Below, piece by piece: positions 13,913 to 27,554 of a DNA stretch of 64,000 nucleotides (positions are counted from its first letter, which is position 1; each line of letters begins with the position of its first letter). Below the pieces are notes generated by a model. That model did not search any database, was not told where the DNA came from, and saw nothing but the letters and a program-made list of their open reading frames with translations. Both the position numbers and the translations under genes were made by a program. This stretch comes from Salibacterium qingdaonense (GTDB lineage: Bacteria > Bacillota > Bacilli > Bacillales > Marinococcaceae). The stretch lies in assembly GCF_900114715.1 (NCBI RefSeq), contig NZ_FOTY01000002.1:124001-188000 (forward strand), given 5' to 3'.

Positions 13913-14956
13913 TCAGGGTTTCTGCGGCTGTACGACGCATTTCAGCCCCTCTTTTCCATCGGCTGTATGGAAAGCCATATCTGTTTCATACAGGGCAAAC
14001 GTATGCGTAATAAAAAAGTCAAAATCAATCAAGCCTTCGTCAATCCATTTGACAGCTTCCATATGAAGATCTCTCGGGGCCCCGTGGGTCCCGGTGACGC
14101 GAAGCTGTTTATAAATGATTTTATCCGTATCAAAGGGTGGTGGTTCGTCAGATTTAATTCCGGCAAAAAGAAGAATGCTGCCGGTTTTTTTTACGACATT
14201 CAGTGCTTCATTCTGCAAGCCTGAAGAGGGAGCGGTAACAATAACACAGTCCGCGCCCAAACCGCCTGTTTCTCCGGCAATAATGTCAGACGTATTGTTT
14301 GAAGAAGGATCAACAACAATATCGGCACCGGCCTCCGCCGCTTTCTGCCTGCGTGGAGCGGAGCGCTGGACGGCAATGACACGCGCGGCTCCCAATCGTT
14401 TAAGAGCCGCGATATACATACAGCCGATTGCGCCGGCGCCGTACACAACGACGGTGTCACCAGCTCGTGCTCCCACTTCACGGAGGCCGCTTAATACGCA
14501 GGAGAAAGGTTCTGACAAACAGGCCTGTTCAAAACTGGTCGTGCCGGCAATCTTTTGAATGGATCCAAAACGAACAAACTCACGAGGGAGAACAATGTAT
14601 TCCGCAAAGCCTCCATCCACCTGATAGCCGATAGAATGCTTTTTCACACATTGGTGTCCCATATTTATTTGACAGTAATGACAGATGCCGCATGGAATGT
14701 GCGCGCCGAGCGTGACACGATCCCCTTCCTGAAAACCAGAAACTGAACTTCCTGTCTGTACAATTTCACCTGCAATTTCATGGCCGGTAACCCTTGGCAT
14801 ATCAATTCTGGAATCCCCCTGTTTAAAAATCCGGAGATCCGATCCACAGATTCCGACGGCGTAGACTTTTATTGTTATTTCTTCTGCTCCACAAGGGGGT
14901 ACTATCATTTCCCGGTACTCAAGCTGCTGTTTTCCGGTTAATGCTACTGCGTGCAT
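13913..14956 (-). CDS. zinc-dependent alcohol/polyol dehydrogenase (MDR family)
   Basis: 347 residues from ATG at 14956, placed by AAAGGAGG 7 bp upstream. Catalytic zinc ligands appear in VGICGSDLRIF and VTGHEIAGE; the structural zinc site has four cysteines in PCGICHYCQINMGHQC. The NAD-binding glycine motif is VVYGAGAIGCMYIAALKRLG. The profile is that of sorbitol/threonine-type dehydrogenases. It lies 26 bp behind the GlpD-family gene in one operon whose promoter carries the 31-bp operator shared with the PTS and Aco operons, so its likely substrate is the polyol or an intermediate of that pathway. Confidence 0.85.
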   Translation of the reverse strand: MHAVALTGKQQLEYREMIVPPCGAEEITIKVYAVGICGSDLRIFKQGDSRIDMPRVTGHEIAGEIVQTGSSVSGFQEGDRVTLGAHIPCGICHYCQINMGHQCVKKHSIGYQVDGGFAEYIVLPREFVRFGSIQKIAGTTSFEQACLSEPFSCVLSGLREVGARAGDTVVVYGAGAIGCMYIAALKRLGAARVIAVQRSAPRRQKAAEAGADIVVDPSSNNTSDIIAGETGGLGADCVIVTAPSSGLQNEALNVVKKTGSILLFAGIKSDEPPPFDTDKIIYKQLRVTGTHGAPRDLHMEAVKWIDEGLIDFDFFITHTFALYETDMAFHTADGKEGLKCVVQPQKP

Positions 14957-14982
14957 GCCATGCCCTCCTTTCAAAGGATGTA

Positions 14983-16635
14983 TTAGGATGAAGGAAGAAA
15001 AGTTACAGTTTTCTGTAAAAGATAACGTATTCTTTCTTTTTCCCGTTCTACACGCGGAGGATCCCAGCCAAGCACTCCTCCCATCGCGCTGCTCACGGAT
15101 TCGAGTGTTGCTGTTACCTTTTCCGGTTGAAATAATAGATAACTGGTGCGGCGGTCATAAAAATCTTCGAGGGAAGCGGCCATTTCCTGTTTCACTGTGT
15201 AGATGGCTTCTCCTGCTGTGTTGCGTGTCACCGGGTGTTCATACAAATGACGCACCGACTCAATCTGCTGTAACAGTGCATTCGTGTTTGACCCATAACG
15301 AAATACGTATTCTTCGACTTCCTGAAAGGTCAGTTTCAAGTGGTCATACGAACGGGTCAGCCTGTGAATAAAGGCTGTCATATCTTCTTCCGATGCAAAA
15401 TGCCCGCCGCTTAATCTAATATCATCGGTGCGGGAAGATGATAATTTAAGATTTTCACGTTTGGCGGCATAAGCCAGCACTCGCTCCGCCATTTTACGAT
15501 AGCCGGTCAGTTTGCCCCCGGCAATCGTAATAAGACCCGAATCGGATTCAAAAATCTCGTCGTGCCGGGACAGTTCCGAAGGTTCACTGTCGTCGTAACC
15601 GATAAGGGGGCGGACCCCGGCCCAGCTGGAAATAATATCGTCCCGAGTAAGAGTAAGAGAAGGAAACATGTCATGCAGACAGCCGATTAAATAGTCACAT
15701 TCGGACTGATAAACATGCATGTCATCCAGGTCATTGTAATAGAGCGATTCTGTTGAACCGACATACGTTGTGTTTCCTTTTGGAATAACGGCAATCATCC
15801 GGCCATGATGCTGAAAGTAAATCGAAGACTGCACCGGCAGTGTTTCATAAGAAAAAACGAGATGAACCCCTTTGGCATGAACCATATGCTTTCCGGACAC
15901 CGGCTCGTCTTTTTTTCGTACTTCATCCACCCATGGTCCCCCTGCATTGACCACTATGCGACCCGAAACCGTGAATGTTTCTCCGGTTACATGATCTTCC
16001 ACAGTAATCCCGCTGATCCTGCCGTTATCATCGAACGTAAAACCATCCACTTCAGCATAATTTAAAACCGAAGCATCCATTTCAGAAGCCGTTTTGGCGG
16101 TTTCCATTGTCAGCCTGCTGTCATCGGTGCGGTATTCTACATACTCTCCACTCCCTTCTACCGTATTTTTGTTGAATAAGGGTTCTTTTTGAAGGGTTTG
16201 TTTCTTCGAATGCAGACGGTGTCGTTCTTCTTTTTTTACACCAGCGAGCCTATCGTACGTGGAGAGACCTATTTTCAATGTAAAGGGATTGAATGATTCT
16301 CCCTTAATCAGAGGAAAAAGCATCTGAATAGGGTAAACAAGGTGTCTGGCATTCCGGTACACGATATCACGTTCTGTACCGACTTCACGTACGATGGAAA
16401 ATTCGTAATTTTTCAGGTACTTCAACCCGCCGTGAATCAGCTTCCCGGAACGGCTGCTAGTCCCGGAAGCAAAGTCTTTTCTTTCAATTAAAGCTGTCTT
16501 CAATCCCCGTGCGGCAGCATCCAGAGCTATACCACTGCCTGTAATACCGCCGCCGATGACAATCATGTCGAATGTCACGTCTGTCATGTACCGGCGGAGG
16601 GCGTCGCGGTGAACAGTAGAAAAAGTATGACTCAA
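14983..16635 (-). CDS. GlpD-family FAD-dependent polyol-phosphate dehydrogenase
   Basis: 550 residues from TTG at 16635, with AAAGGAGAG upstream; this gives MSHTFSTVHRDAL, like GlpD N-termini. FAD motif is VIGGGITGSGIALDAAARGL; GTSSRSGKLIHGGLKYL, EYRTDDSRL and TIAGGKLTGYRKMAE follow the glycerol-3-phosphate dehydrogenase pattern. There is no glpK or glpF nearby. Instead its promoter carries the operator shared with the glucitol-type PTS. It could be ordinary GlpD, or a paralogue that oxidises the polyol phosphate delivered by the PTS, as EryB does for erythritol phosphate. The family is certain; the substrate is inference. Confidence 0.85.
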   Translation of the reverse strand: MSHTFSTVHRDALRRYMTDVTFDMIVIGGGITGSGIALDAAARGLKTALIERKDFASGTSSRSGKLIHGGLKYLKNYEFSIVREVGTERDIVYRNARHLVYPIQMLFPLIKGESFNPFTLKIGLSTYDRLAGVKKEERHRLHSKKQTLQKEPLFNKNTVEGSGEYVEYRTDDSRLTMETAKTASEMDASVLNYAEVDGFTFDDNGRISGITVEDHVTGETFTVSGRIVVNAGGPWVDEVRKKDEPVSGKHMVHAKGVHLVFSYETLPVQSSIYFQHHGRMIAVIPKGNTTYVGSTESLYYNDLDDMHVYQSECDYLIGCLHDMFPSLTLTRDDIISSWAGVRPLIGYDDSEPSELSRHDEIFESDSGLITIAGGKLTGYRKMAERVLAYAAKRENLKLSSSRTDDIRLSGGHFASEEDMTAFIHRLTRSYDHLKLTFQEVEEYVFRYGSNTNALLQQIESVRHLYEHPVTRNTAGEAIYTVKQEMAASLEDFYDRRTSYLLFQPEKVTATLESVSSAMGGVLGWDPPRVEREKERIRYLLQKTVTFLPSS

Positions 16636-16649
16636 AGACTCTCTCTCCT

Positions 16650-16680
16650 TTACAAAAGTTCTTTGTAACATCATTTGTAA
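16650..16680. promoter_or_regulatory. shared 31-bp operator, copy 1 (glpD-like operon)
   Basis: TTACAAAAGTT, a 10-nt spacer, then TCATTTGTAA. Same length and same end sequences as copies at 17856-17886 and 20060-20090. It lies just downstream of the likely -10 and ends 15 bp before the TTG start, a position suited to repression. Candidate ligand is one of the two SorC-family regulators. Confidence 0.75.
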
Positions 16681-16693
16681 ATATGGTAGTCTC

Positions 16694-16722
16694 AGCATAG
16701 CGTACTATCCATTGTTCGTCAA
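16694..16722 (-). promoter_or_regulatory. sigma-A promoter of the glpD-like/dehydrogenase operon
   Basis: Read on the minus strand: TTGACG, 17-nt spacer, TATGCT. It is followed by the 31-bp operator and then the RBS of the GlpD-family gene. Confidence 0.6.
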
Positions 16723-16846
16723 TAAAGGGCTTACATTTTATAAAGAAACTATTTTAGAAACAGGCAGGTCGTTCTACAACGGAGAAAATTCCTGCTATGA
16801 TGTACATGATCAATATTGTGACAATTGTTAAAAGGAGGCGTTGCAC

Positions 16847-17794
16847 ATGGACTGGAAAGAGCGCAGACAAATGGTTCGAATAGCGAAACTATATCATCTG
16901 GAAAATTGGACACAAACAGAAATAGCCAAAAAAGTAGAACTCTCCCGTCCCATCATTTCCAAACTGCTGCAAAGAGCAAAGGAAATGGGGATTGTGGAAA
17001 TTTATATCAACGATGAAACGCTCCATACGGTAAAACTCGAAAATGAAATAGAAAAAAAGTATAACTTGAAGGATGTTGTCGTTGCTGCTTCTGGTACCCA
17101 TGGAACAGAAGTGGTCAAACGCCGGGTAGGACAAGCAGCAGCTTCCTATGTTTCTAAAAAGATAGACTCTCTGAACAGGATCGGTATTTCCTGGGGGAAG
17201 TCGATGCATGCTTTTATCGATGAATTTCCGGCACGGGCTGGAAAACATGTACATCTGGTGCCTTTGATCGGCGGGATGGGAAGCAATGATGTTCATCTTC
17301 ATTCCAATCATCTGACCTTTCATCTTGCGCAGAAACTGAACACGACTTCTTCTTATCTTCATGCGCCGGCTATGGTAGAAACCGAGGATTTGAAGAACAG
17401 CCTGATGCAGTCCAAAGATATTGCCGAAGTGATAGAAGAGGGCAGAACAGTGGATCTTGCGGTGGTGGGGGTCGGTATTCCCTCGGAGAAGGCAACCATG
17501 GCGGAAATGGGATATTTCAGCCCGGATGATATCGAGTCATTAAGAGAGGCAGAAGCCATCGGGGATATGAACTCGCAGTTTTACAATAAAGACGGCATGG
17601 AAATTGTGCACACCTTAAACAATCGAACGATTGCTTTAACGATGGAGGATTTAAAGCACATTCCGGAAGTAGTCGCGGTAACCGATGGTGTAGAAAAAGT
17701 GGAAAGTCTTCATGCTGCATTGAAAAGCGGATGTATCGATGTGCTGGTAACAGACTATAACATGGCAGGGATACTGCTGGAGCAGACATTTTAA
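16847..17794 (+). CDS. SorC/DeoR-family sugar-binding transcriptional regulator 1
   Basis: 315 residues, ATG at 16847 with AAAGGAGG 8 bp before it. N-terminal helix-turn-helix: WTQTEIAKKVELSRPIISKL (about residues 21-40). The remaining part is the SorC sugar-phosphate sensor, with GISWGKSMHAFIDEF, VPLIGGMGSND and the C-terminal LVTDYNMAGILLEQ. It is divergent from the GlpD-family gene and directly upstream of the PTS operon. A paralogue lies at 24925. These proteins release or bind DNA when a phosphorylated sugar is present; the shared operator nearby is the obvious target. Confidence 0.88.
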   Translation: MDWKERRQMVRIAKLYHLENWTQTEIAKKVELSRPIISKLLQRAKEMGIVEIYINDETLHTVKLENEIEKKYNLKDVVVAASGTHGTEVVKRRVGQAAASYVSKKIDSLNRIGISWGKSMHAFIDEFPARAGKHVHLVPLIGGMGSNDVHLHSNHLTFHLAQKLNTTSSYLHAPAMVETEDLKNSLMQSKDIAEVIEEGRTVDLAVVGVGIPSEKATMAEMGYFSPDDIESLREAEAIGDMNSQFYNKDGMEIVHTLNNRTIALTMEDLKHIPEVVAVTDGVEKVESLHAALKSGCIDVLVTDYNMAGILLEQTF

Positions 17795-17824
17795 CTATGA
17801 TGAATAAATCTTTCTGTAGAAAGG

Positions 17825-17853
17825 TTGACAAAACAATGAAAGCGTTTTATTAT
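17825..17853 (+). promoter_or_regulatory. promoter of the glucitol-type PTS operon with an overlapping cre-like site
   Basis: TTGACA at 17825-17830, 17-nt spacer, TATTAT at 17848-17853. TGAAAGCGTTTTAT at 17837-17850 fits the CcpA cre consensus (central AAnCGnT) except for its last two bases. Binding there would block the promoter. The 31-bp operator begins 3 bp further on. Confidence 0.6.
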
Positions 17854-17855
17854 TT

Positions 17856-17886
17856 TTACAAAAGTTAAGACATTATACATTTGTAA
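17856..17886. promoter_or_regulatory. shared 31-bp operator, copy 2 (PTS operon)
   Basis: TTACAAAAGTT, 10-nt spacer, ACATTTGTAA, directly before the RBS of gutM. The first 11 bp are identical in all three copies. Confidence 0.78.
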
Positions 17887-17902
17887 AAAGGAGGGAAAAG
17901 AG

Positions 17903-18304
17903 ATGTGGGGTACCTTTTTTATTATCTTTGCTGCCATCTGGACATTACAATTTTTATTGACCCACCTGCAGGTGAAACATTACCAGGGCAAAATCAGGGA
18001 AATGAGCCGAAAACACAAAGGTTATCTTGGGACAGGATTTTTTAAAAAAAGATTCGGAAACGGTGCGGTGATGCTGCTGGTTTGTGATGATGAAACCAAA
18101 ATCAAGGAAGCAAAAGTGATGAAAGGCTTAACTGTATTTGCAAGATTTCGAACGGTAAAAAAATTAATTGGTCTGACACTGGAGGAGAGCAGAGACCTTG
18201 ATACGTTGACGGTAAAAGAAAGCAGCGCTCTGGCTGATGCTGCCGGTATGATTGAAAAAGAAATGAAAAAGAAAAGAGAGGGGAATGAAGCATGGATTTC
18301 TTAA
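17903..18304 (+). CDS. gutM: GutM-family protein of the glucitol PTS operon
   Basis: 133 residues with one N-terminal membrane helix (about 2-22) and the GutM pattern HYQGKIREMSRKHKGYLGTG, then MKGLTVFARFR. GutM (SrlM) is named glucitol operon activator in enteric bacteria and always accompanies SrlA/SrlE-type PTS genes. RBS AAAAGGAGGG precedes ATG. The stop overlaps the start of srlA by 13 bp, so expression is coupled. In bacilli its biochemical role is not established; membrane anchoring suggests an accessory PTS subunit. Confidence 0.85.
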   Translation: MWGTFFIIFAAIWTLQFLLTHLQVKHYQGKIREMSRKHKGYLGTGFFKKRFGNGAVMLLVCDDETKIKEAKVMKGLTVFARFRTVKKLIGLTLEESRDLDTLTVKESSALADAAGMIEKEMKKKREGNEAWIS

Positions 18305-18834
18305 TTACACTAGCTGAAGGCTTTATCGGCATGTTTGAAGCAGGCGGTGAGACGTTTACCGGCCTGGTGACAGATATTATTCCTTTATTAATTGTTTTGA
18401 TTACAGCTGTAAACGCTGTCATTAAATTCGTCGGTGAGGAACGGGTGAACCGTTTTGCCCAGAAATGTACGAAATACTTTATTCTACGTTATACTATCTT
18501 TCCATTTATGGCCGTGTTCTTTCTCACCAACCCGATGTGTTACACGTTCGGCCGTTTTCTTCCGGAACGCCAAAAGCCGGCCTTTTATGATTCGGCCGTA
18601 TCGTTTGTACACCCTGTTACAGGGCTTTTCCCTCACGCCAACGCAGCAGAATTGTTCGTCTATACAGGGGTTGCAGCGGGGATTTCGGATATCGGTTTAT
18701 CCCAGGGGCCGCTCGCTTTGAGATTTCTGCTTGTTGGTATTGCTGTTATGCTTCTCCGGGGTGTTGTTACGGAAATAATCACCAATTATATGATTAAAAA
18801 CAATAAAAGAAAATCAGAAGCCGCGGCTGAATAA
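18292..18834 (+). CDS. srlA: PTS glucitol/sorbitol-type EIIC component
   Basis: 180 residues with four or more hydrophobic segments. Family words are KFVGEERVNRFAQKCTKYF, RYTIFPFMAVFFLTNPMCYT and GRFLPERQKPAFYDS, all typical of SrlA/GutA. It forms the membrane channel together with SrlE and transports a hexitol-like polyol with phosphorylation. It starts inside gutM and is followed 47 bp later by srlE. Confidence 0.9.
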   Translation: MDFLITLAEGFIGMFEAGGETFTGLVTDIIPLLIVLITAVNAVIKFVGEERVNRFAQKCTKYFILRYTIFPFMAVFFLTNPMCYTFGRFLPERQKPAFYDSAVSFVHPVTGLFPHANAAELFVYTGVAAGISDIGLSQGPLALRFLLVGIAVMLLRGVVTEIITNYMIKNNKRKSEAAAE

Positions 18835-18881
18835 AAAACAGCAAGTCGAAAAATTGCAGGAAAACGGAGGAGGTTAAATAA

Positions 18882-19928
18882 ATGAGTGAATATCATGCAG
18901 TAAAAGTACACAAAGGCGCGTCCGGTTGGGGTGGCCCGCTTGTTATTCAGCCGGATGAAGACAAAAAATATGTCGTATCAGTCACCGGAGGCGGAATCCA
19001 CCCAGTTGCCCGGGAAATCGCCGACCGCACCGGTGCAACAGCTGTAGATGGCTTTGAACAATCCGTGGAAAAAGAAGAAATGATTTGTGCGGTTATCAAC
19101 TGCGGCGGCACGGCAAGAAGTGGTGTGTATCCGCGGATGGGAGTATTGACCATCAATGTGTTCAGTAACTCTCCGTCCGGTCCGCTGATGAAATTTATCA
19201 AAGAAACGAACTTTGTTTCCGGTGTTGGAACCGATAATATTGAAGATGTGGAAGGCGGATCAGTTGAGAAAAGTGTGGAAGAAGCCAATGAAGAAATAGA
19301 AAATAAAGAATCTTCAAAAGACGAAACGCAGAAAGTAACGAAAGAGGCTGCCAAAGAACAGGTAGCAGAACAGGGGTACAACGGCAAAGAAAAAAGCAAA
19401 ATCGGCCAGTTTATTGACACCCTTGGTAATAAAATCGGGAATGTCGTCAGCATTTTTTTCCAGTCCGGACGGGAAACCGTCGACACTGTTATTAAGAATA
19501 TTCTGCCATTTATGGCGTTTGTCAGTATGCTTATCGGTATTATTAACTATACAGGAATCGGCGATTTAATTGCTAACTATGTTTCCCCGCTTGCTGGTTC
19601 ACTCACCGGTATGTTAATTCTTTCGCTCCTTGGAGCCATACCGCTTATTTCTCCGATTCTCGCACCCGGGGCGGTTATCGCCCAGGTTGTCGGCGTGCTG
19701 ATCGGTGTAGAAATCGGGAATGGTAACATTCCGCCGCAGATGGCGCTGCCTGCCTTGTTTGCGATTAACCCTCAGGTAGGAATGGACTTTATCCCTGTAG
19801 GTTTGACGCTCGGGGAAGCAGAGCCGGAAACGGTGGAAGTCGGTATACCGGCTGTTCTTTTCTCCCGTTTAATCACAGGACCAATCGCTGTTGTCATTGC
19901 GTATTTCGCTAGTTTCGGTCTTTATTAG
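18882..19928 (+). CDS. srlE: PTS glucitol/sorbitol-type EIIB(C) component
   Basis: 348 residues. The N-terminal EIIB domain (about 1-115) has the phosphocysteine loop [17 protein letters not shown] charged linker ([16 protein letters not shown] and on) leads to the membrane part from about residue 190 ([20 protein letters not shown], then [18 protein letters not shown]), as in SrlE. Phosphate passes from SrlB to this cysteine and then to the polyol. RBS GGAGGAGG is 9 bp upstream. No clear terminator separates it from the next operon; a T-rich stretch follows at 19970-19985. Confidence 0.9.
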
Positions 19929-20059
19929 TTGGATGGTCTTCCCTTTGCAGTCTGAGGGGGGACTTTCCCTTCTTTTTTTCTCTTTTTCATAACATTTGTA
20001 AAAATAAAGAACAAAAGAAAAAGAGAGATTGACATTAAATCTGTAGTAGATTACTATAA

Positions 20060-20090
20060 TTACAAAAGTTATATTAATGAACAAATGTAA
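20060..20090. promoter_or_regulatory. shared 31-bp operator, copy 3 (aco-type operon)
   Basis: TTACAAAAGTT, 10-nt spacer, ACAAATGTAA, immediately before the RBS of the E1-alpha gene and overlapping the last T of a TATAAT hexamer (20055-20060). A TTGACA lies 20 nt before that hexamer, a spacing longer than optimal. One further half-site, ACATTTGTAA, occurs alone at 19992-20001. Confidence 0.78.
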
Positions 20091-20102: not shown

Positions 20103-21086
20103 ATGCTTAAATCTGTGGAACTTCTTCCGGAAAAATCAAGCGATGAATTGATTGGTCTGTTGAAGGAAATGTGGACAATCCGTTATTTCGATGAAAAAGT
20201 AGACGAATTTTTTGCCAAGGGAATGATTCACGGGACTACGCATCTTTGTGTCGGCCAGGAACCGACAGCTTCCGGACCGTGCTCGGTGCTGCGCAGCGAT
20301 GACAAAATAACCAGTACGCACCGCGGCCACGGCCATTGTATTGCTAAAGGGGCGGACATCAATCTGATGATGGCGGAGCTTTTTGGACGCTCCACCGGCT
20401 ACTGCAAAGGAAAAGGCGGTTCCATGCACATTGCTGATGTAGAAAAAGGAAACCTTGGCGCCAATGGCATTGTCGGAGGAGGTATTCCGCTTGCCACCGG
20501 CGCAGCACTGACATCCAAAATGAAAAACCAGGAAGATGTCATTCTCAGCTATTTCGGAGACGGCGCCGCCAATGAGGGAAGTTTTCATGAATCACTTAAC
20601 CTTGCCTCCATCTGGGATCTTCCGGTCGTGTTTATCTGCGAAAATAATCAGTACGGGATGTCCGGTTCCGTCAAGGAAATGGTAAACATCGAAGATATTG
20701 CCGAACGTGCTTCGTCTTACGGCATCCCCGGAGTTGTTGTAGATGGTAACGACCTTGTTGAAATAATGAATGAAACCGATAAGGCCGTGCAGCATGCCCG
20801 GCAAGGCAAAGGTCCTGTTTTGATTGAAGCAAAAACGTACCGCTGGAAAGGGCACTCGAAATCAGATGCCCGTAAGTACCGGACCCGGGAAGAAGAACAG
20901 ACCTGGAAAGAGAAAGACGGTATTAAGCGCTTTCGGGAGCTTTTGATCCATGAAGAAATTCTGACTGAAGACGATGCAGAAAATATACGTAAAGAAGCCA
21001 AACAAAACGTTGAAGAAGCAGTTCAATTCGCGGAAGAAAGTCCGGAACCTGGACTGGATACACTGCTTGAAGATGTCTACGCCTGA
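20103..21086 (+). CDS. acoA: acetoin-dehydrogenase-type E1 alpha subunit (TPP-dependent)
   Basis: 327 residues. The thiamine diphosphate motif is GDGAANEGSFHESLNLASIW followed by VFICENN; STHRGHGHCIAKGAD and GYCKGKGGSMHIAD place it in the AcoA branch rather than with PdhA. With the beta subunit it would decarboxylate or cleave acetoin or a related alpha-hydroxyketone or 2-oxo acid, and pass the acyl group to E2. RBS TGGAGGTG lies 4 bp after the operator. It is the first gene of a four-gene operon. The true substrate is uncertain since the operon shares its operator with a polyol PTS. Confidence 0.85.
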   Translation: MLKSVELLPEKSSDELIGLLKEMWTIRYFDEKVDEFFAKGMIHGTTHLCVGQEPTASGPCSVLRSDDKITSTHRGHGHCIAKGADINLMMAELFGRSTGYCKGKGGSMHIADVEKGNLGANGIVGGGIPLATGAALTSKMKNQEDVILSYFGDGAANEGSFHESLNLASIWDLPVVFICENNQYGMSGSVKEMVNIEDIAERASSYGIPGVVVDGNDLVEIMNETDKAVQHARQGKGPVLIEAKTYRWKGHSKSDARKYRTREEEQTWKEKDGIKRFRELLIHEEILTEDDAENIRKEAKQNVEEAVQFAEESPEPGLDTLLEDVYA

Positions 21087-21116: not shown

Positions 21117-22103
21117 GTGAGAGAATTAACGTATGTAGAAGCATTACGCGAATGTATGTCACAGGAAATGAGAGAAAATGAAAATGTTTTTCTGATGGGA
21201 GAGGACATCGGTGTATACGGTGGAGCCTTTGGAGTCACCCGCGGAATGATTGAAGAGTTCGGTTCAAAGAGAGTGCGTAACACGCCAATATCGGAAGCCG
21301 GAATTACCGGATCAGCGATTGGATCAGCACTTACCGGCATGCAGCCGATTGTGGAGCTGCAATTCTCCGATTTTATTACCATTGCGATGGATCAACTTGC
21401 CAACCAGGCGGCAAAACTGCGTTACATGTACGGAGGAAAAGGCAACGTTCCGATGGTGCTGCGGACCCCTGCGGGCTCCGGTACAGGCGCAGCCGCTCAG
21501 CATTCACAGAGCCTGGAAGCGTGGGTTGCTCATGTTCCGGGGCTGAAAGTGGTACAGCCATCTACCGCCTATGATGCAAAAGGTCTTTTGAAAGCAGCGA
21601 TAGATGATCCAAATCCGGTTATCTTTTACGAACACAAACTGCTGTATAAAACGAGCAGTGACGATGTTCCGGAAGAATCATATCGTATTCCACTCGGTCA
21701 GGCCGACGTCAAGAAAGAAGGAACAGACGTCACGATTGTGGCGACGTCCGTGATGGTCCACCGGGCGCTGGATGCGGCGGAAAAGCTTTCTGAAGAAGGA
21801 ATCAGCGTGGAAGTCATTGATCCCCGTTCCATCGTTCCGCTGGATGAAGAAACCATCGTGCAGTCGGTCATTAAAACGAACCGCGTCGTTGTTGTTCACG
21901 AAGCGGTGAAGCGCGGCGGTTACGGCGCGGAAATAGCGAGTATGATTACAGAAAGCGAAGCGTTTGATTTTCTGGATGCACCGGTGAAACGGCTTGGCGC
22001 CTCGCCGGTGCCGGTCCCTTATAATCCGGAGCTTGAAAAAGCGATGACGCCCCAGACCGACGATTTGATTCAGACATGCAGAGAAACCCTGCAGCGCACG
22101 TAA
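21117..22103 (+). CDS. acoB: acetoin-dehydrogenase-type E1 beta subunit
   Basis: 328 residues, GTG start with AGGAGGGG upstream. Transketolase-like pyrimidine-binding motifs are present: [38 protein letters not shown] and [20 protein letters not shown], and the C-terminal domain has [16 protein letters not shown]. It is the partner of the alpha subunit, 30 bp downstream of it. Composition and codon use match its neighbours. Confidence 0.87.
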
Positions 22104-22117
22104 GGAGGTGAATCCCT

Positions 22118-23455
22118 GTGGCAAAAGAAGTTTTCATGCCGAAACTGAGCAGTACGATGGAAACCGGTACGATCCTGCAATGGATGAAAAATGAAGGAGA
22201 CCCGGTGGAAATGGGTGAACCGGTTTTTGAAGTCATGAGTGACAAAATAAACATTGAAGTGGAAGCCTACGAAGAAGGTTTTATGCTGAAAAAATATTAC
22301 AATGTTGATGATGTGGTGCCTGTAAATACGGTAGTCGGCTATATCGGTGAAAAAGAGGAGAATGTACCGGACACTCCTCCGGAAAGTACAGAGGACTCCG
22401 AATCCGATGCTGCATCGGAACCTGAACAAAACGAACCAGCCGCACATGGCACTGAGTCTTCTTCGGTTAGACAGGTCGAACGGGGACAGATTCGCGCAAC
22501 ACCGGCGGCCAGACGTGTGGCAAGAGAGGAAGAAGTGAGCCTTTCTGACGTAACAGGGAGCGGTCCGAAGCAGCGGGTTCAGCAGCAGGATGTGCGTGAT
22601 TTCCTCCAGAATGCTCCGAAACCTCCGAAAGCAACACCGCTTGCCCGTAAGTGGGCCGAGGATCAGAACGTTGATTTAAACACGGTGGAAGGTTCCGGCC
22701 CTGTAAACAAAATTTATACAAAAGATTTATCCGCAGCACAAGAAGAGACGGTTTCATCCGAACCGGACCGGATTCCGGTGAAAGGCGTCCGCAAAGTAGT
22801 TGCCGATCGTATGGCAGAAAGTGCATCCACCGTTCCACATGTCACGCTCAACTCTGATGTTGATATGACCGAAGCTATCCGGCTGCGGAGCCAGATTCAG
22901 GATAAAGTCGTCGAACAGACCGGTTCGAAGTTGTCCTATACTGAAATTATAATGAAAGCTGTGGCTGCAGCCCTGAAACGGCATCCATCCATCAATGCTT
23001 CCCTGTCTTCCGATCAGCAGGAAATCCTGCTGCACCGAGACATCAATATCGGGCTTGCAGTTGCGACAGAGCAGGGTCTTGTCGTTCCTGTGGTTCCGAG
23101 TGCCGGAGAGAAAGGATTGACAGCTCTCGTCAAGGAAAGCAAACAGCTCGCGGCTGACGCACGAAACCAGCAGCTGAATCCTCAGCAGATGCAGGGAGGA
23201 ACATTCACCATCAGCAATCTTGGCATGTATGCTGTAGACGGGTTCACTCCGATCATCAACCAGCCTGAAGCTGCTATTCTCGGTGTTGGACAGATGAAAG
23301 AAACACCAACTGCTCGTAATGGAAATGTGGAACTGCGCCCGCTGACTACATTCAGCCTTTCCTTTGATCATCGGATTGTAGATGGAGCACCGGCTGCTGC
23401 GTTTTTGACAGAATTGAAACAGATGCTCGAAGCTCCCTATGAATTGTTGATGTAA
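22118..23455 (+). CDS. acoC: E2 dihydrolipoamide acyltransferase with two tandem subunit-binding domains
   Basis: 445 residues, GTG start with AAGGAGGTG. Lipoyl domain at 1-75 with the lipoyl lysine in VMSDKINIEVEAY (Lys43). After an acidic linker come two peripheral-subunit-binding domains, IRATPAARRVAREEEVSLSD (125-163) and KATPLARKWAEDQNVDLNTV (170-206), where one is usual. The catalytic domain follows from about 218 and ends with FSLSFDHRIVDGAPAAAFL (His near 417). It forms the core of the complex and hands the acyl group to CoA. Confidence 0.88.
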   Translation: MAKEVFMPKLSSTMETGTILQWMKNEGDPVEMGEPVFEVMSDKINIEVEAYEEGFMLKKYYNVDDVVPVNTVVGYIGEKEENVPDTPPESTEDSESDAASEPEQNEPAAHGTESSSVRQVERGQIRATPAARRVAREEEVSLSDVTGSGPKQRVQQQDVRDFLQNAPKPPKATPLARKWAEDQNVDLNTVEGSGPVNKIYTKDLSAAQEETVSSEPDRIPVKGVRKVVADRMAESASTVPHVTLNSDVDMTEAIRLRSQIQDKVVEQTGSKLSYTEIIMKAVAAALKRHPSINASLSSDQQEILLHRDINIGLAVATEQGLVVPVVPSAGEKGLTALVKESKQLAADARNQQLNPQQMQGGTFTISNLGMYAVDGFTPIINQPEAAILGVGQMKETPTARNGNVELRPLTTFSLSFDHRIVDGAPAAAFLTELKQMLEAPYELLM

Positions 23456-23471: not shown

Positions 23472-24860
23472 ATGCATAATTATGATATCATCATTATCGG
23501 AAGCGGTCCGGGGGGCTATACAGCTGCTCTCCGGGCTGCCAATGAAGGAAAGAAAACTGCGGTGGTGGAAGACCGTAAAATAGGGGGAACGTGCCTGCAC
23601 CGCGGCTGTATTCCTTCCAAGACAATGCTGCAGCACGCTGAAGTCCTTCATCAGGTGGAAGGTTCAGCTGCCTGGGGGATAGAAACAGGAGACGTTTCTT
23701 TTTCCTACACCGCGATGCTGGAACGAAAAGAGAAGGTTGTTTCCCAGCTCGAGGCTGGAATCACAGCACTGATGAAAAAAGGGAAAATTGATGTTTTTCC
23801 CGGACGTGGCAGTGTAAATAATGAAAAGGAAGTTACCGTGGAAAAAGAAGGGCAGACTGAACGTCTGCAAGCACCTGCGGTTATTGCCGCTGCAGGGACC
23901 AGTCCGTTTGTGCCGCCTGTGAGCGGACTTCGCGAAACGGCACACTTCACCAGTGATACTATTTTTGAGAAACGAGAACTTCCCTCGTCCCTGCTTATTG
24001 TAGGAGGCGGGATCGTAGGAGTAGAATATGCCTGTCTTTTTGCCGGACTGCATGTAGACGTTACGATTGTGGAAATGCAGGAAGATATTCTAACAGGCGA
24101 AGATAAAGATGCTTCCGCCTTACTGCGGCGTTCCCTGGAAAAGCAGGGAGTTACCGTGGAAACCGGTGCGGCCCTCCATGATGTCCAAACCAAAAAGCAA
24201 AAAGCGGTAACTGTCGTATATACACGGAAGGATGGATCCAGAGAGGAAATAGATGTAGATGACGTCCTCGTGACAGCCGGCCGCAAACCGAACAATGCTG
24301 TGCTCGAAGATACATCTGTCCAGTACGTGGACGGGTTTGTCCGGGTGAATGAAAATATGGAAACCAGTGTTACCGGCTTATATACAATCGGTGATCTTGC
24401 AGCAGGAGGCTGGAAACTCGCTCATGCTGCAAGTGCAGAAGGCATTACCGCGGTGGAGCACGCCTGCGGTCTGAAGCCTTCCATTCACAAGTCCCTGATT
24501 CCAAGGTGTATTTATACGTTCCCGGAGATTGCCGCGGTTGGAATGACAGAAGAGGAAGTGCAGCAGCGTGGTTATGATTATAAAACAGAACTCATTCCAT
24601 TGCAGGGAAACGGCAAGGCGATGGCAATGGAAGTGTCAGATGGATTTACCAAGATCATTGTAGAGAAAAAGCATGGCGAGATTCTGGGTGCCGTTCTTGC
24701 AGGGCCCCACGTTACTGAAATGATTGGAGAACCTGCTGCCTACATCCATCTGGAAGGGACCGTCGACGAACTTGCTTCTATGGTGCACCCGCATCCGACT
24801 TTGCTGGAGAGCTTGTATGAAGCAGCACGCTCCTGGATCGGCAAAGGAATTCATCATTAA
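23472..24860 (+). CDS. acoL: E3 dihydrolipoamide dehydrogenase
   Basis: 462 residues. FAD motif IIIIGSGPGGYTAALRAANE, redox-active disulfide GGTCLHRGCIPSK (Cys41 and Cys46), NAD motif LLIVGGGIVGVEYACLFAGL, and the C-terminal catalytic His-Pro HPHPTLLESLYEA. It reoxidises the lipoyl groups of E2 with NAD. RBS AAGGAGG, 17 bp after acoC. Having a dedicated E3 in the operon is typical of Aco and Bkd complexes. Confidence 0.92.
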   Translation: MHNYDIIIIGSGPGGYTAALRAANEGKKTAVVEDRKIGGTCLHRGCIPSKTMLQHAEVLHQVEGSAAWGIETGDVSFSYTAMLERKEKVVSQLEAGITALMKKGKIDVFPGRGSVNNEKEVTVEKEGQTERLQAPAVIAAAGTSPFVPPVSGLRETAHFTSDTIFEKRELPSSLLIVGGGIVGVEYACLFAGLHVDVTIVEMQEDILTGEDKDASALLRRSLEKQGVTVETGAALHDVQTKKQKAVTVVYTRKDGSREEIDVDDVLVTAGRKPNNAVLEDTSVQYVDGFVRVNENMETSVTGLYTIGDLAAGGWKLAHAASAEGITAVEHACGLKPSIHKSLIPRCIYTFPEIAAVGMTEEEVQQRGYDYKTELIPLQGNGKAMAMEVSDGFTKIIVEKKHGEILGAVLAGPHVTEMIGEPAAYIHLEGTVDELASMVHPHPTLLESLYEAARSWIGKGIHH

Positions 24861-24924: not shown

Positions 24925-25869
24925 ATGCTCAGTTGGGAAGAACGCCGCCAGATCGTGAAAGTAGCCAACCTATATTACTTTGACGGCTGGACGCAGGCCC
25001 GGATTGCAAAAAAAATGAATGTATCACGACCGGTGATATCCAAATTGCTTCATAAAGCAAAAGAGGACGGTATTGTAGAGGTTTACATTAAAGATGAAAG
25101 CGCTCAAACGGTAGATCTCGAACAAAAGCTGGAAAAAAAGTTCGATCTTGATGAAGCCATTGTGTTATCAACGAGCGGATTTACACCGGAGATGACGAAA
25201 CGCTTTCTGGGAAAAGTCGGTGCTTCCTATCTGTCGCGCCAGCTGGATGATAATAAAACACTCGGCTTGTCGTGGGGGACGACTATTGCTTCTCTCGTCG
25301 ATGAATACCCTTACGAACGCCGTGACAATGTCCAAATTGTACCGCTCGTCGGCGGGATGGGGCGTTCTCATGTCAACATTCATTCCAATTCGCTGGCATT
25401 TAATCTGGCAAAAAAAATGAATGCAGCCTGCTCTTATCTTTACGCTCCAGCCATCGTAGAAACAGAAGATTTAAGAGATCGTCTGATTCAGTCCAAGGAT
25501 GTAGCCCATGTTCTGGAATTGGGTAAGAATGTAGATATAGCCGTTGTAGGTATGGGGGACCCGTTTAAGAATTCGACGATGGAAGAAATCGGCTATCTCC
25601 ATCCAGAGGATCTCCACTCTCTGAGAAAAGCAGGAGTGGTAGGCGATATCAGTTCCAAATTTTTTGATGCCGTTGGTCAGGAAGTCGATCATCCTCTTAA
25701 TCACCGCGTCATAGGACTGGGATTGCAGGATTTGAAGAAAATACCAAAAGTCATCGGAATTGTGGAAAGTCTGTACAAACTCGAAAGCATTGAAGCGGCG
25801 CTGAGAGGTGGTTACCTCGACGTTCTTATCATTGATGACCGGACAGCGCAGGAATTAGTGGAAAATTAA
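24925..25869 (+). CDS. SorC/DeoR-family sugar-binding transcriptional regulator 2
   Basis: 314 residues, a clear paralogue of the regulator at 16847: N-terminal MLSWEERRQIVKVANLYYFD, helix-turn-helix WTQARIAKKMNVSRPVISKL, sensor motifs LGLSWGTTIASLVDEY and VPLVGGMGRSHVN. RBS AAAGGAG. It begins 64 bp after acoL and is followed at 18 bp by srlB, so it is probably in the same or an adjoining transcript. Two such regulators in one locus could sense two different phosphorylated intermediates, or form mixed oligomers. Confidence 0.88.
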   Translation: MLSWEERRQIVKVANLYYFDGWTQARIAKKMNVSRPVISKLLHKAKEDGIVEVYIKDESAQTVDLEQKLEKKFDLDEAIVLSTSGFTPEMTKRFLGKVGASYLSRQLDDNKTLGLSWGTTIASLVDEYPYERRDNVQIVPLVGGMGRSHVNIHSNSLAFNLAKKMNAACSYLYAPAIVETEDLRDRLIQSKDVAHVLELGKNVDIAVVGMGDPFKNSTMEEIGYLHPEDLHSLRKAGVVGDISSKFFDAVGQEVDHPLNHRVIGLGLQDLKKIPKVIGIVESLYKLESIEAALRGGYLDVLIIDDRTAQELVEN

Positions 25870-25887: not shown

Positions 25888-26256
25888 ATGTCCGTATACT
25901 TTGAAGCAGATGTAACAACCATTGGTCCGGAAGTGGAGCTTATGCTTGAGGATAACATTTTGATTTTGTTTAACGAGTCCGCGACAGAGGATCTTAAAGA
26001 AATATCCGTTATTCACAACGGCACAACCGTTTCGGAAATGATTGAAACCGGAGATGAATTTGTGATTGATGGAACCCCTTATAAGATCCTGTTTGTGGGA
26101 AGTAAAGTAAATGAAACAATGAATGATTTAGGTCATGCCACCCTTCAGTTCAACGGGGAATCAGAATCGGACATGCCGGGCACTGTGTGTCTGGAAGACG
26201 GTATTCGCAATGAAATAGCATCCAGTTCGAAATTACAGTTTCGCAAAAACAGCTGA
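25888..26256 (+). CDS. srlB: PTS glucitol/sorbitol-type EIIA component
   Basis: 122 residues with the SrlB outline: VTTIGPEVELMLEDNILILF, EISVIHNGTTV, YKILFVGSKVNETMNDLGHA (with a histidine suited for phosphorylation near residue 80) and HATLQFNGESESDMPGTVCL. It passes phosphate from HPr to SrlE. It sits 6 kb away from srlA and srlE, beyond the aco genes, which ties the two operons into one functional locus. RBS AAAGGAGG, ATG start. Confidence 0.88.
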   Translation: MSVYFEADVTTIGPEVELMLEDNILILFNESATEDLKEISVIHNGTTVSEMIETGDEFVIDGTPYKILFVGSKVNETMNDLGHATLQFNGESESDMPGTVCLEDGIRNEIASSSKLQFRKNS

Positions 26257-26270
26257 AGGAGGCAGAAAAA

Positions 26271-27554
26271 ATGCTCGGAATGAATAGAAAACTATCAGCA
26301 TTTGAAACCGAGGGGAAGTATATCAAAGTAGGGTTAATCGGCGCTGGGCAGATGGGCCGCGGTATGATATCCCAAATTGAGGGAATGAAAGGGATGAAGG
26401 TGGTAGCAACAGCTGATATAAATATTTCTAATGTTATCAATGCGTATAAGTATGCCGGCATCCCTGAAGAAAACATTATTCAGACAGAGAAAGAAGAAGA
26501 GGCTGTACGCGCCGTGGAAGAAGGGAAAGTCACAGCTTTTTCCGAGGCAGAAAAAGTGGCTTCCCTCCCTTCTGTAGATGTGGTCGTGGATGCGACCGGC
26601 ATTCCGAATGTCGGAGCGGCAATCGCCTGGGAGGCCATCCTGAACCGAAAGCACATTGTTATGCTGAATGTGGAAGCAGATGTGACAGTCGGCCCGGTTC
26701 TGAAAAAACTGGCGGACAGCGCTGGAGTCGTTTATACCGGATCGGCCGGGGATGAGCCGGGAGCGGTAATGGAACTTTTTGATTTTGCGGACGCCCTTGG
26801 ATTTGAAGTAATAGCGCTTGGTAAAGGAAAAAACAATCCATTGAATCTCGAAGCGAATCCATCAACGGCGGCGCAGGAGGCAGAAGAAAAAGGAGCCAGC
26901 CCGAAAATGCTTGCTTCCTTCCAGGACGGTACGAAAACGATGGTGGAAATGAATGCGGTGGCAAACGCAACCGGTTTCATTCCGGATCAGACAGGAATGC
27001 ATGGATTCAGCGCAACAGTGGATGAGCTGGCGGACATTTTTCAACTGAAGGACAATGGCGGACAGCTCCATCATAAAGGTATTGTAGAGTACGTACAGGG
27101 AGTGGCTCCCGGCGTTTTTGCCATTATTACATCTCATAATGAAGAAGTTCATGAAGAACTCCAATATGTAAAGCTTGGAAACGGCCCTCATTATACGCTC
27201 TACAGACCTTACCATCTGACTAGTCTGGAGACACCGCTTACAGTGGCACGTGCCTTTTTTGACAAGGAACCGACCATTGCACCAAATTATGATCGTCAGG
27301 CTGAAACTGTGGCCACCGCGAAAAAAGATTTGAAAGAGGGAGAATTCCTCGACAGTATCGGCGGGTACAGTGTATATGGTACGTTGATGGAAAAATCAGA
27401 AGCCGATGGTGCTGAAGCATTTCCTATTGGTCTGGTGGATGCCAATGTAAAAGTAATGCGTGATGTACAAAAAGGAGAAACATTGACGTATAATGATATT
27501 GAGCAGACAAAAGAATCCACCATCTGGAGACTCCGCCGTCTCCAGGAACAGTAA
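26271..27554 (+). CDS. NAD(P)-dependent homoserine-dehydrogenase-like oxidoreductase with C-terminal SAF domain
   Basis: 427 residues. Rossmann motif VGLIGAGQMGRGMISQIEGM near residue 25; VDVVVDATGIPNVGAAIAWE and MLNVEADVTVGP continue the dehydrogenase fold; GSAGDEPGAVMELFDFAD and ALGKGKNNPLN are characteristic. The C-terminal 80 residues, with FPIGLVDANVKVMRDVQKGE, form an SAF domain. The family corresponds to the predicted homoserine dehydrogenases with SAF domain; substrates are mostly unassigned. It follows srlB by 14 bp, so it should act on the imported polyol or a derivative. It is not a housekeeping homoserine dehydrogenase. Confidence 0.8.
   Translation: MLGMNRKLSAFETEGKYIKVGLIGAGQMGRGMISQIEGMKGMKVVATADINISNVINAYKYAGIPEENIIQTEKEEEAVRAVEEGKVTAFSEAEKVASLPSVDVVVDATGIPNVGAAIAWEAILNRKHIVMLNVEADVTVGPVLKKLADSAGVVYTGSAGDEPGAVMELFDFADALGFEVIALGKGKNNPLNLEANPSTAAQEAEEKGASPKMLASFQDGTKTMVEMNAVANATGFIPDQTGMHGFSATVDELADIFQLKDNGGQLHHKGIVEYVQGVAPGVFAIITSHNEEVHEELQYVKLGNGPHYTLYRPYHLTSLETPLTVARAFFDKEPTIAPNYDRQAETVATAKKDLKEGEFLDSIGGYSVYGTLMEKSEADGAEAFPIGLVDANVKVMRDVQKGETLTYNDIEQTKESTIWRLRRLQEQ

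Follow-up and report, generated by a model that had tools for sequence, protein, structure and literature searches.

The question raised by this locus is what joins a sorbitol phosphotransferase system (PTS), an acetoin/pyruvate dehydrogenase and an NAD(P)H-dependent SAF-domain oxidoreductase, whose genes are as a rule annotated separately and are linked here by one operator. The locus lies in a stretch of 64,000 nucleotides from Salibacterium qingdaonense (assembly GCF_900114715.1, contig NZ_FOTY01000002.1, positions 124,001–188,000), which was analysed as a whole and is called the window below; coordinates without a prefix are window positions. Its genes are, in order, two on the minus strand for a Zn-alcohol dehydrogenase and a GlpD-like oxidoreductase, then those for the regulator SorC1, GutM–SrlA–SrlE of the PTS, and E1a–E1b–E2–E3–SorC2–IIA–DRL, in which DRL is the oxidoreductase, related to the isoprenoid enzyme DXR-II. 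An initial annotation had described three 31-bp sites, each directly before the ribosome-binding site of a different transcription unit, as operators of one regulon. The best explanation overall, which we consider probable on the evidence of sequence comparison, is one operator class that would be read by two SorC-family repressors at three promoters and would serve the catabolism of methylerythritol.

The coordinates and letters given for the three sites (first positions 16650, 17856 and 20060) were reproduced exactly, and the ends of the proposed motif were right; the motif itself was refined to a full 31-bp dyad of consensus TTACAWWWG-N13-CWWWTGTAA, in which positions 1–5, 9–10, 22–23 and 27–31 are nearly fixed in the 85 sites with at most one mismatch described below. 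In the 3,516,738-bp genome this consensus was matched without mismatch at three places, all within the locus, against 0.0076 exact matches expected per genome (window base composition, bases taken as independent). The scan of the genome that had been proposed to look for random scatter of the motif thus left the regulon unrefuted, the exact matches being confined to the locus. Outside it, one place was found with one mismatch and three with two. With up to three mismatches allowed, the motif had 54 places and a reversed control 86; as this is no enrichment, only near-exact sites were used. The sole outside place with one mismatch (contig C62, 14925–14955) is GC-rich and looks hairpin-like; it falls in no stop-to-stop span of more than 100 codons, a span of 186 codons starts 65 bp downstream, and the place may conceivably be functional.

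Each of the three sites lies between a predicted sigma-A promoter and the Shine–Dalgarno sequence of a different operon, in agreement with the placement first described. The window operators would cover or closely follow the predicted start site and they abut the Shine–Dalgarno sequence, a placement that suggests the geometry of a repressor. The same arrangement was found in related loci when 97 operator–gene pairs, among them those of the three window sites, were scored with consensus sequences for sigma-A promoters and cre sites; a pair consisted of a site and a gene of one of five classes at most 60 bases away. The promoter scored 9 or more of 12 in 83 pairs (shuffled control 24.9%), and in 75 of the 97 the operator was positioned −1 to +14 from the −10 element of a promoter of that score (control 4.7%). 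Sites resembling the cre element of CcpA were present in 53 pairs (shuffled control over all classes 9.5%) and at 32 of the 37 GutM operators.

A half-site had also been reported at 19992–20001. It is present, but it does not stand alone, being half of a degenerate 31-bp copy at 19990–20020 upstream of operator 3. In L017 and L018 counterparts of this auxiliary site (two mismatches each) are found 69 bp before the E1a operator, and a more degenerate one occurs in L016; these are the three Salibacterium loci compared, whose DRL proteins share 81–92% identity with that of the window. By analogy with SorC tetramers, which bind two half-operators according to passages of PMC11229326, the 31-bp length of the dyad and the auxiliary site would fit SorC proteins of the window acting in this way. 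The initial annotation had overlooked this auxiliary operator, the CcpA-type cre site, the T22 form of the operator before the GlpD-like gene and the presence of a DXR-II-like enzyme in the regulon.

Conservation was assessed in 51 loci gathered by a scan with DRL (about 1 Mb of DNA in total), in which the motif was sought at up to two mismatches. The operator was found in 43 of them, at 120 places with at most two mismatches and 85 with at most one; the longer list includes a few overlapping or chance two-mismatch sites, about one chance place being expected in this amount of DNA if the four places outside the locus in 3.5 Mb are taken as a guide. Conserved operators precede GutM, E1a, the GlpD-like gene and IIA and, in some genera, SorC2 itself. 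In Ornithinibacillus bavariensis an operator with one mismatch (L028:16386–16416) lies 99 bp before an open reading frame (ORF) of no assigned identity downstream of the E3 gene, possibly an extra member of the regulon.

No site at up to two mismatches was found in eight of the 51 loci (L040 and L059–L065), and the genomes of all of these but L062 were searched for SorC2. L040 is truncated by a contig end and its genome has a SorC2 relative of 63% identity; L060 and L063 have SorCs at 36–38%; in the genomes of L059, L061, L064 and L065 no protein resembling SorC2 along most of its length exceeds 35% identity. Five promoter stretches (L060, L063, two of L069, and L070) contained no dyad with at least ten of 11 paired arm bases. 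Salinicoccus sediminis (L059) has kept DRL, with no PTS-Gut or operator in 21 kb and no SorC2-like protein above 29% in its genome.

In a sample of 159 genomes of the order (strict operator; SorC2 relative at E ≤ 1e-75; DRL at E ≤ 1e-100), the operator was present in nine (reversed control, one), a SorC2 relative in 11 and DRL in ten. All nine operator genomes fall within the 11 that bear SorC2 (hypergeometric p 4e-13). Genome G164 has the operator, SorC2 and E1–E3 and no DRL at E ≤ 1e-100, and in G052 about 240 kb separate DRL from the operator; by these patterns it is SorC2, and not DRL, that the operator goes with.

The SorC proteins of the locus, already named as the likely binders, are on these comparisons by far the best candidates: besides the nine of nine genomes, a SorC1/SorC2-type protein accompanies all 43 operator-bearing loci, within the locus DNA in 39 (at least 44% identity) and elsewhere in the genome for the other four (L036, 61%; L037, 62%; L049, 49%; L058, 51%). 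SorC1 and SorC2 carry the sugar-bind effector domain PF04198 (243.8 and 264.8 bits; cut-off 27) and a DeoR-type N-terminal helix-turn-helix, SorC2 aligning over its full length to DeoR and SorC structures and SorC1 to NF053881 over 3–313.

It is somewhat unlikely that one SorC alone binds the operators while the other reads something else or acts as a co-sensor. In a tree of 93 SorC rows, built by a quick method without bootstrap and leaving out six rows (five duplicate proteins under another name, and L097_7063, whose helix could not be aligned), the 17 that adjoin the GlpD-like gene form one group, named by hand (support 94), and such a narrow SorC1 clade speaks for a single binder. So does a difference at position 22, which is T, as in operator 1, at 11 of 13 sites linked to the GlpD-like gene and at none of 75 others (Fisher p 2.4e-12). 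This count was made on sites with at most one mismatch; L017 and L018 were assigned to the GlpD-like gene by synteny (their DNA ends before it) and L016:393 and L044:1507 from gene order, and the count excludes four two-mismatch sites linked to that gene, of which those of L020 and L034 have T and those of L021 and L028 have A.

The same operator, however, accompanies each paralogue lineage alone. The SorC1 group and the SorCs of Salinicoccus, Alkalicoccus, Salimicrobium and Sinobaca make up a set of 24 rows (support 97), outside which lie the SorC2 proteins of the window, Planococcus and Marinococcus. Genome G036, outside this SorC1-side set, and G144, inside it, have the operator and a single such protein at E ≤ 1e-75, the operators of G144 being identical to those of Sinobaca L044; G005 (L058), also inside the set, has one such SorC besides a 29% match. 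Since each lineage occurs alone with the operator, both probably bind it, and the recognition helices of SorC1 and SorC2 are near-identical (SRPIISKLL and SRPVISKLL). We therefore favour two readers of one 31-bp palindromic operator class: SorC1 very probably reads the same class as SorC2, with a possible preference for the T22 variant at the GlpD-like promoter, and both would probably act as repressors at the transcription start.

The features of the locus are listed in Table 1. The subunits of the PTS (GutM, SrlA, SrlE and IIA, together PTS-Gut) are present. DRL shows 45.0% identity to the Brucella DXR-II 3upy over 424 positions; ten residues named for DXR-II function and divergence in passages of PMC3847144 were checked and nine are kept (G121, E174, F178, K191, K193, T229, H250, R320 and Y322), V351 being replaced by Q. 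The genome has a separate, ordinary DXR-I, so that DRL is not its sole reductoisomerase. The window E1 alpha is 29–33% identical to the three other E1 alphas of the genome (a fifth match is weak and short), two of which pass the cut-off of PDH_E1_alph_x; at this identity it is a separate paralogue, and the E1a–E1b–E2–E3 operon, with the composition of an acetoin-dehydrogenase complex, is distinct from them.

Table 1. Features of the locus, by position in the window
Feature	Position	Strand	Remarks
Zn-dependent alcohol dehydrogenase family protein	13913..14974	-	Pfam ADH_N / ADH_zinc_N; every NCBIfam match below cut-off
GlpD/GlpO-like FAD-dependent oxidoreductase	14983..16635	-	Pfam DAO, DAO_C; putative TTG start after Shine–Dalgarno sequence abutting operator 1
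Operator 1	16650..16680	-	Precedes GlpD-like/Zn-alcohol-dehydrogenase operon; T22 variant; exact genome match
Predicted sigma-A promoter of GlpD-like operon, TTGACG-17-TATGCT	16694..16722	-	Operator 1 begins 13 bp past -10
SorC1, SorC-family regulator	16847..17794	+	PF04198; in tree, paralogue clade adjoining GlpD-like gene
Predicted sigma-A promoter 2, TTGACA-17-TATTAT	17825..17853	+	Operator 2 begins 2 bp past -10
CcpA cre-like site	17837..17850	+	Overlaps promoter 2; 2 mismatches
Operator 2	17856..17886	+	Precedes gutM-srlA-srlE (PTS glucitol type); kept before GutM in related loci
GutM	17903..18304	+	PF06923
SrlA, PTS glucitol-type IIC	18292..18834	+	NF049923 above cut-off
SrlE, PTS glucitol-type IIB(C)	18882..19928	+	NF049924 above cut-off
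Auxiliary degenerate operator	19990..20020	+	3 mismatches; contains 19992–20001; 70 bp upstream of operator 3, upstream of predicted -35
Predicted sigma-A promoter 3, TTGACA-17-TACTAT	20029..20057	+	Operator 3 begins 2 bp past -10
Operator 3	20060..20090	+	Precedes E1a-E1b-E2-E3-SorC2-IIA-DRL; kept before E1a in related loci
E1 alpha (E1a), acetoin/pyruvate-dehydrogenase type	20103..21086	+	TIGR03182, 390.3 bits against cut-off 393.85
E1 beta (E1b)	21117..22103	+	ORF; 75% identical to annotated subunit in L067
E2, lipoyl acyltransferase	22118..23455	+	ORF; 53% identical to annotated E2 in L067
E3, dihydrolipoyl dehydrogenase	23472..24860	+	ORF; 46% identical to annotated LpdA in L067
SorC2, SorC-family regulator	24925..25869	+	PF04198; relatives track operator across genomes; nearest solved relative Lmo0547 effector domain 4r9n
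PTS glucitol-type IIA	25888..26256	+	PF03829
DRL, DXR-II-like oxidoreductase	26271..27554	+	PF21135 DRL_cat; 45.0% identical to Brucella DXR-II 3upy

For the binding, the direction of control, the inducer, the substrate and the chemistry we infer the following scheme. When inducer is lacking, a SorC oligomer sitting on the transcription start, between the −10 element and the Shine–Dalgarno sequence, would block initiation at the three promoters together. At the E1–DRL operon the weaker second operator upstream of the −35 element would probably provide an extra repressing contact, and at the PTS promoter CcpA would probably add glucose repression through the cre site. PTS-Gut would import 2-C-methyl-D-erythritol and phosphorylate it to 2-C-methyl-D-erythritol 4-phosphate (MEP), DRL working in reverse would oxidize MEP to 1-deoxy-D-xylulose 5-phosphate (DXP), and E1–E2–E3 would split DXP, as an analogue of acetoin, into acetyl-CoA and glyceraldehyde 3-phosphate. 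Conversion of a polyol to its phosphate, then to DXP and on to these two products would be the simplest common chemistry, because DXP shares the CH3-CO-CHOH group of acetoin. DRL would be needless if deoxyxylulose were the food, which favours 2-C-methyl-D-erythritol. Chemistry of pyruvate dehydrogenase (PDH) with deoxyxylulose has been described: PDH makes 1-deoxy-D-xylulose from pyruvate and D-glyceraldehyde, and DXP rises about 20-fold with a mutant AceE, according to passages of PMC3424233.

Together with other uptake systems, the regulon (PTS-Gut, the GlpD-like oxidase, the DXR-II-like oxidoreductase and E1–E2–E3) is found again elsewhere, alphaproteobacterial plasmids included. E1 genes lie within the locus DNA of 40 of the 51 DRL loci. 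Ten of the remaining 11 (all but L062) were queried for E1a in nine genomes at E ≤ 1e-60: four genomes, those behind L032/L037, L036, L040 and L049, gave matches of 68–74%, and those of L060, L061, L064 and L065 gave best matches of 52–58%, which could simply be acetoin dehydrogenase of the usual kind. DRL is accompanied by an MFS transporter and an FGGY kinase in Priestia, Metabacillus and Ectobacillus, and in Hakubella the order is SorC–DRL–E1a–E1b–E2–E3. A DRL match was found in 111 plasmid records, of which twelve were inspected; nine of these are alphaproteobacterial, and in eight of the nine (L069, L070, L112–L116 and L118) E1a–E1b–E2 directly follow DRL. The uptake genes of the eight are ABC with a sugar kinase in three, PTS-Gut in four and none in view in one, and it is these alphaproteobacterial loci that carry the argument that uptake differs while DRL and E1–E2 stay. 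Six of the nine also show a SorC gene in the stretch inspected. The gene lipA was seen in two of the plasmid loci (L069 and L070).

We see even chances that bacteria of several phyla possess a dedicated route that would run the first steps of the MEP pathway backwards under SorC repressors sensing MEP or DXP. Phosphorylation would be carried out by PTS-Gut, an FGGY kinase or another sugar kinase and the step from MEP to DXP by DXR-II, after which a complex of the acetoin-dehydrogenase type, using thiamine pyrophosphate (TPP) and lipoamide, would cleave DXP oxidatively to acetyl-CoA and glyceraldehyde 3-phosphate. In Ligilactobacillus salivarius (L071:9004–16575) DRL, PTS-Gut and SorC were found with a fructose-6-phosphate aldolase and a transketolase, and no E1–E3 was in view; FSA-type aldolases act on deoxyxylulose phosphate, and this locus possibly represents another way of splitting it.

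Several observations weigh against the proposal of two SorC repressors and methylerythritol catabolism. The equilibrium of DXR-type enzymes favours formation of MEP, so that the reverse DRL reaction needs a pull from the next step. The best match of E1a is a PDH-type model, just below its cut-off, and the GlpD-like oxidoreductase and the alcohol dehydrogenase are left without a step in the proposed route. E1 genes are not always at hand: the Salinicoccus sediminis genome gave no E1a match at the threshold used, a Phyllobacterium H39 plasmid locus has DRL without linked E1 genes, and Listeria L068 consists of SorC, DRL and PTS-Gut with no E1–E2–E3 in the 19 kb inspected. MFS and FGGY are no clean replacement of the PTS, since all of PTS-Gut is retained in L067 and genes for SrlE and IIA stand at the edge of L038. 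On the regulatory side, SorC1 and SorC2 are separate paralogues, and two of the 11 SorC2-bearing genomes (G058 and G163) lack the strict operator, both holding sites with one to two mismatches. Most of the 51 loci are from related Bacillales found through DRL, and their counts are not independent events.

It is unlikely that the locus simply serves an ordinary sorbitol PTS and acetoin dehydrogenase, DRL being a surplus enzyme of isoprenoid synthesis. In favour of this alternative, SrlA and SrlE score above the cut-offs of glucitol models, the E1 belongs to the acetoin/pyruvate dehydrogenase family, some plasmid loci have an E2 annotated as that of acetoin dehydrogenase, and DXR-II enzymes are able to make MEP according to passages of PMC3847144. 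Against it, no sorbitol-6-phosphate dehydrogenase was found among the ten locus products scanned (the Zn-dehydrogenase, with no assigned substrate, being one of them), and the genome owns a DXR-I. DRL and E1–E2(–E3) moreover occur together in distant lineages despite differing uptake genes, and the PTS and E1–DRL operons stand under one operator class.

As to the binder, it is very improbable that GutM or a PRD-type regulator occupies the operators and that SorC is a mere neighbour. GutM is present in most loci (39 ORFs in 51 loci), Pfam describes its family as an activator of the glucitol operon, and PRD regulators are present in some loci; but PRD proteins occur in only three of the loci scanned, and the stretches L099 and L100 have the operator and SorC2 with GutM undetected there (G052 has GutM elsewhere, in L101). 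Variant operators also point to SorC. Sites of a TAACA type stand at DRL and PTS promoters and at one SorC promoter (L101:6480, L101:7790, L102:1671, L103:2, L104:9836 and L071:8960). In the four genomes of L101–L104 they lie with a separate SorC clade (36–39% identity to SorC2, helix SRSLISK), and in the same genomes TTACA sites (one mismatch in G163) and SorC2 belong to the E1 operons. Operators and their regulators possibly change in concert, which we treat as a lead only. A change of P to S in the recognition helix was considered as the cause of the switch from TTACA to TAACA and was likewise reduced to a lead: SRS is found in five rows of one clade, L071 has a TAACA site but an SRP helix, and TAACA left arms occur near SRP SorCs in L021, L028, L031, L038, L039 and L067.

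That the dyad is an RNA hairpin of the leader instead of a DNA operator is least likely of all, for although it abuts the Shine–Dalgarno sequence and the leader of site 2 outdoes shuffled sequences in folding (z −2.58; six of 200 shuffles equally good), those of sites 1 and 3 do not (z 0.03 and 0.13) and arm positions 6–8 pair about as often as under independence (0.57, 0.43 and 0.39 against 0.48, 0.47 and 0.42 in 76 distinct sites), so that a hairpin is unsupported by folding of these two sites and by arm pairing.

The operator provides a specific signature by which a SorC regulon can be searched for in Bacillales. Passages of the DXR-II survey PMC3847144 describe the joint presence of DXR-II and DXR-I as redundant gene functions; the proposed pathway, if true, would give DXR-II a physiological role where DXR-I is already present, would account for the retention of the one beside the other in many bacteria, and would define a bacterial sink for methylerythritol. 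No account of methylerythritol catabolism was found among the matches listed from the open-access PMC literature (subscription papers and preprints being outside that scope), and the putative 2-C-methylerythritol catabolic pathway looks undescribed.

Among known SorC-family systems, Bacillus subtilis DeoR has the same domain plan as SorC1 and SorC2, which score 253.4 and 263.3 bits on NF053881 and share the conserved SRP that opens the recognition helix, but both fall below the equivalog cut-off of 420 bits. The DeoR operator of dra-nupC-pdp is given in passages of PMC11229326 as an asymmetric site of 39 bp that spans −60 to −21 and has TTGAA/TTCAA elements, whereas the window sites are 31-bp dyads bounded by TTACA/TGTAA and lie at the predicted start, downstream of the −10 element predicted there. 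The gapA operator of B. subtilis CggR, also of the SorC family, resembles them in being a downstream repressing site. CggR binds as tetramers to two half-operators, its 45-bp operator lying at +32 to +77 with CGGGAC repeats (passages of PMC11229326); its DNA-binding domain is of another subfamily, and the window sites do not have the 45-bp CGGGAC-repeat form.

Of the enzymes, the window DRL differs from Brucella DXR-II in lying in an operon of catabolic type in a genome that also holds DXR-I. Acetoin dehydrogenase and PDH complexes work by TPP and lipoamide chemistry; the gene order E1a, E1b, E2, E3 is that of AcoABCL and PDH complexes, but in the window these genes are linked to DRL and a sugar uptake system.

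The closest solved relative of SorC2 is Listeria Lmo0547 (4r9n; 248.5 bits). In Listeria L068 a SorC gene, 48% identical to SorC2 and, from the neighbouring label 'lmo0549 family', inferred to be lmo0547, stands beside DRL, GutM, SrlA, SrlE and IIA. A perfect dyad before DRL (L068:8884–8910), with ACATTTGT/ACAAATGT arms, has the spacing of the window operators; its outer bases are not TTACA/TGTAA, and in arms and spacing it is the same as the TAACA-type variant sites. The arrangement suggests that the structurally solved Lmo0547 regulates the Listeria DRL locus.

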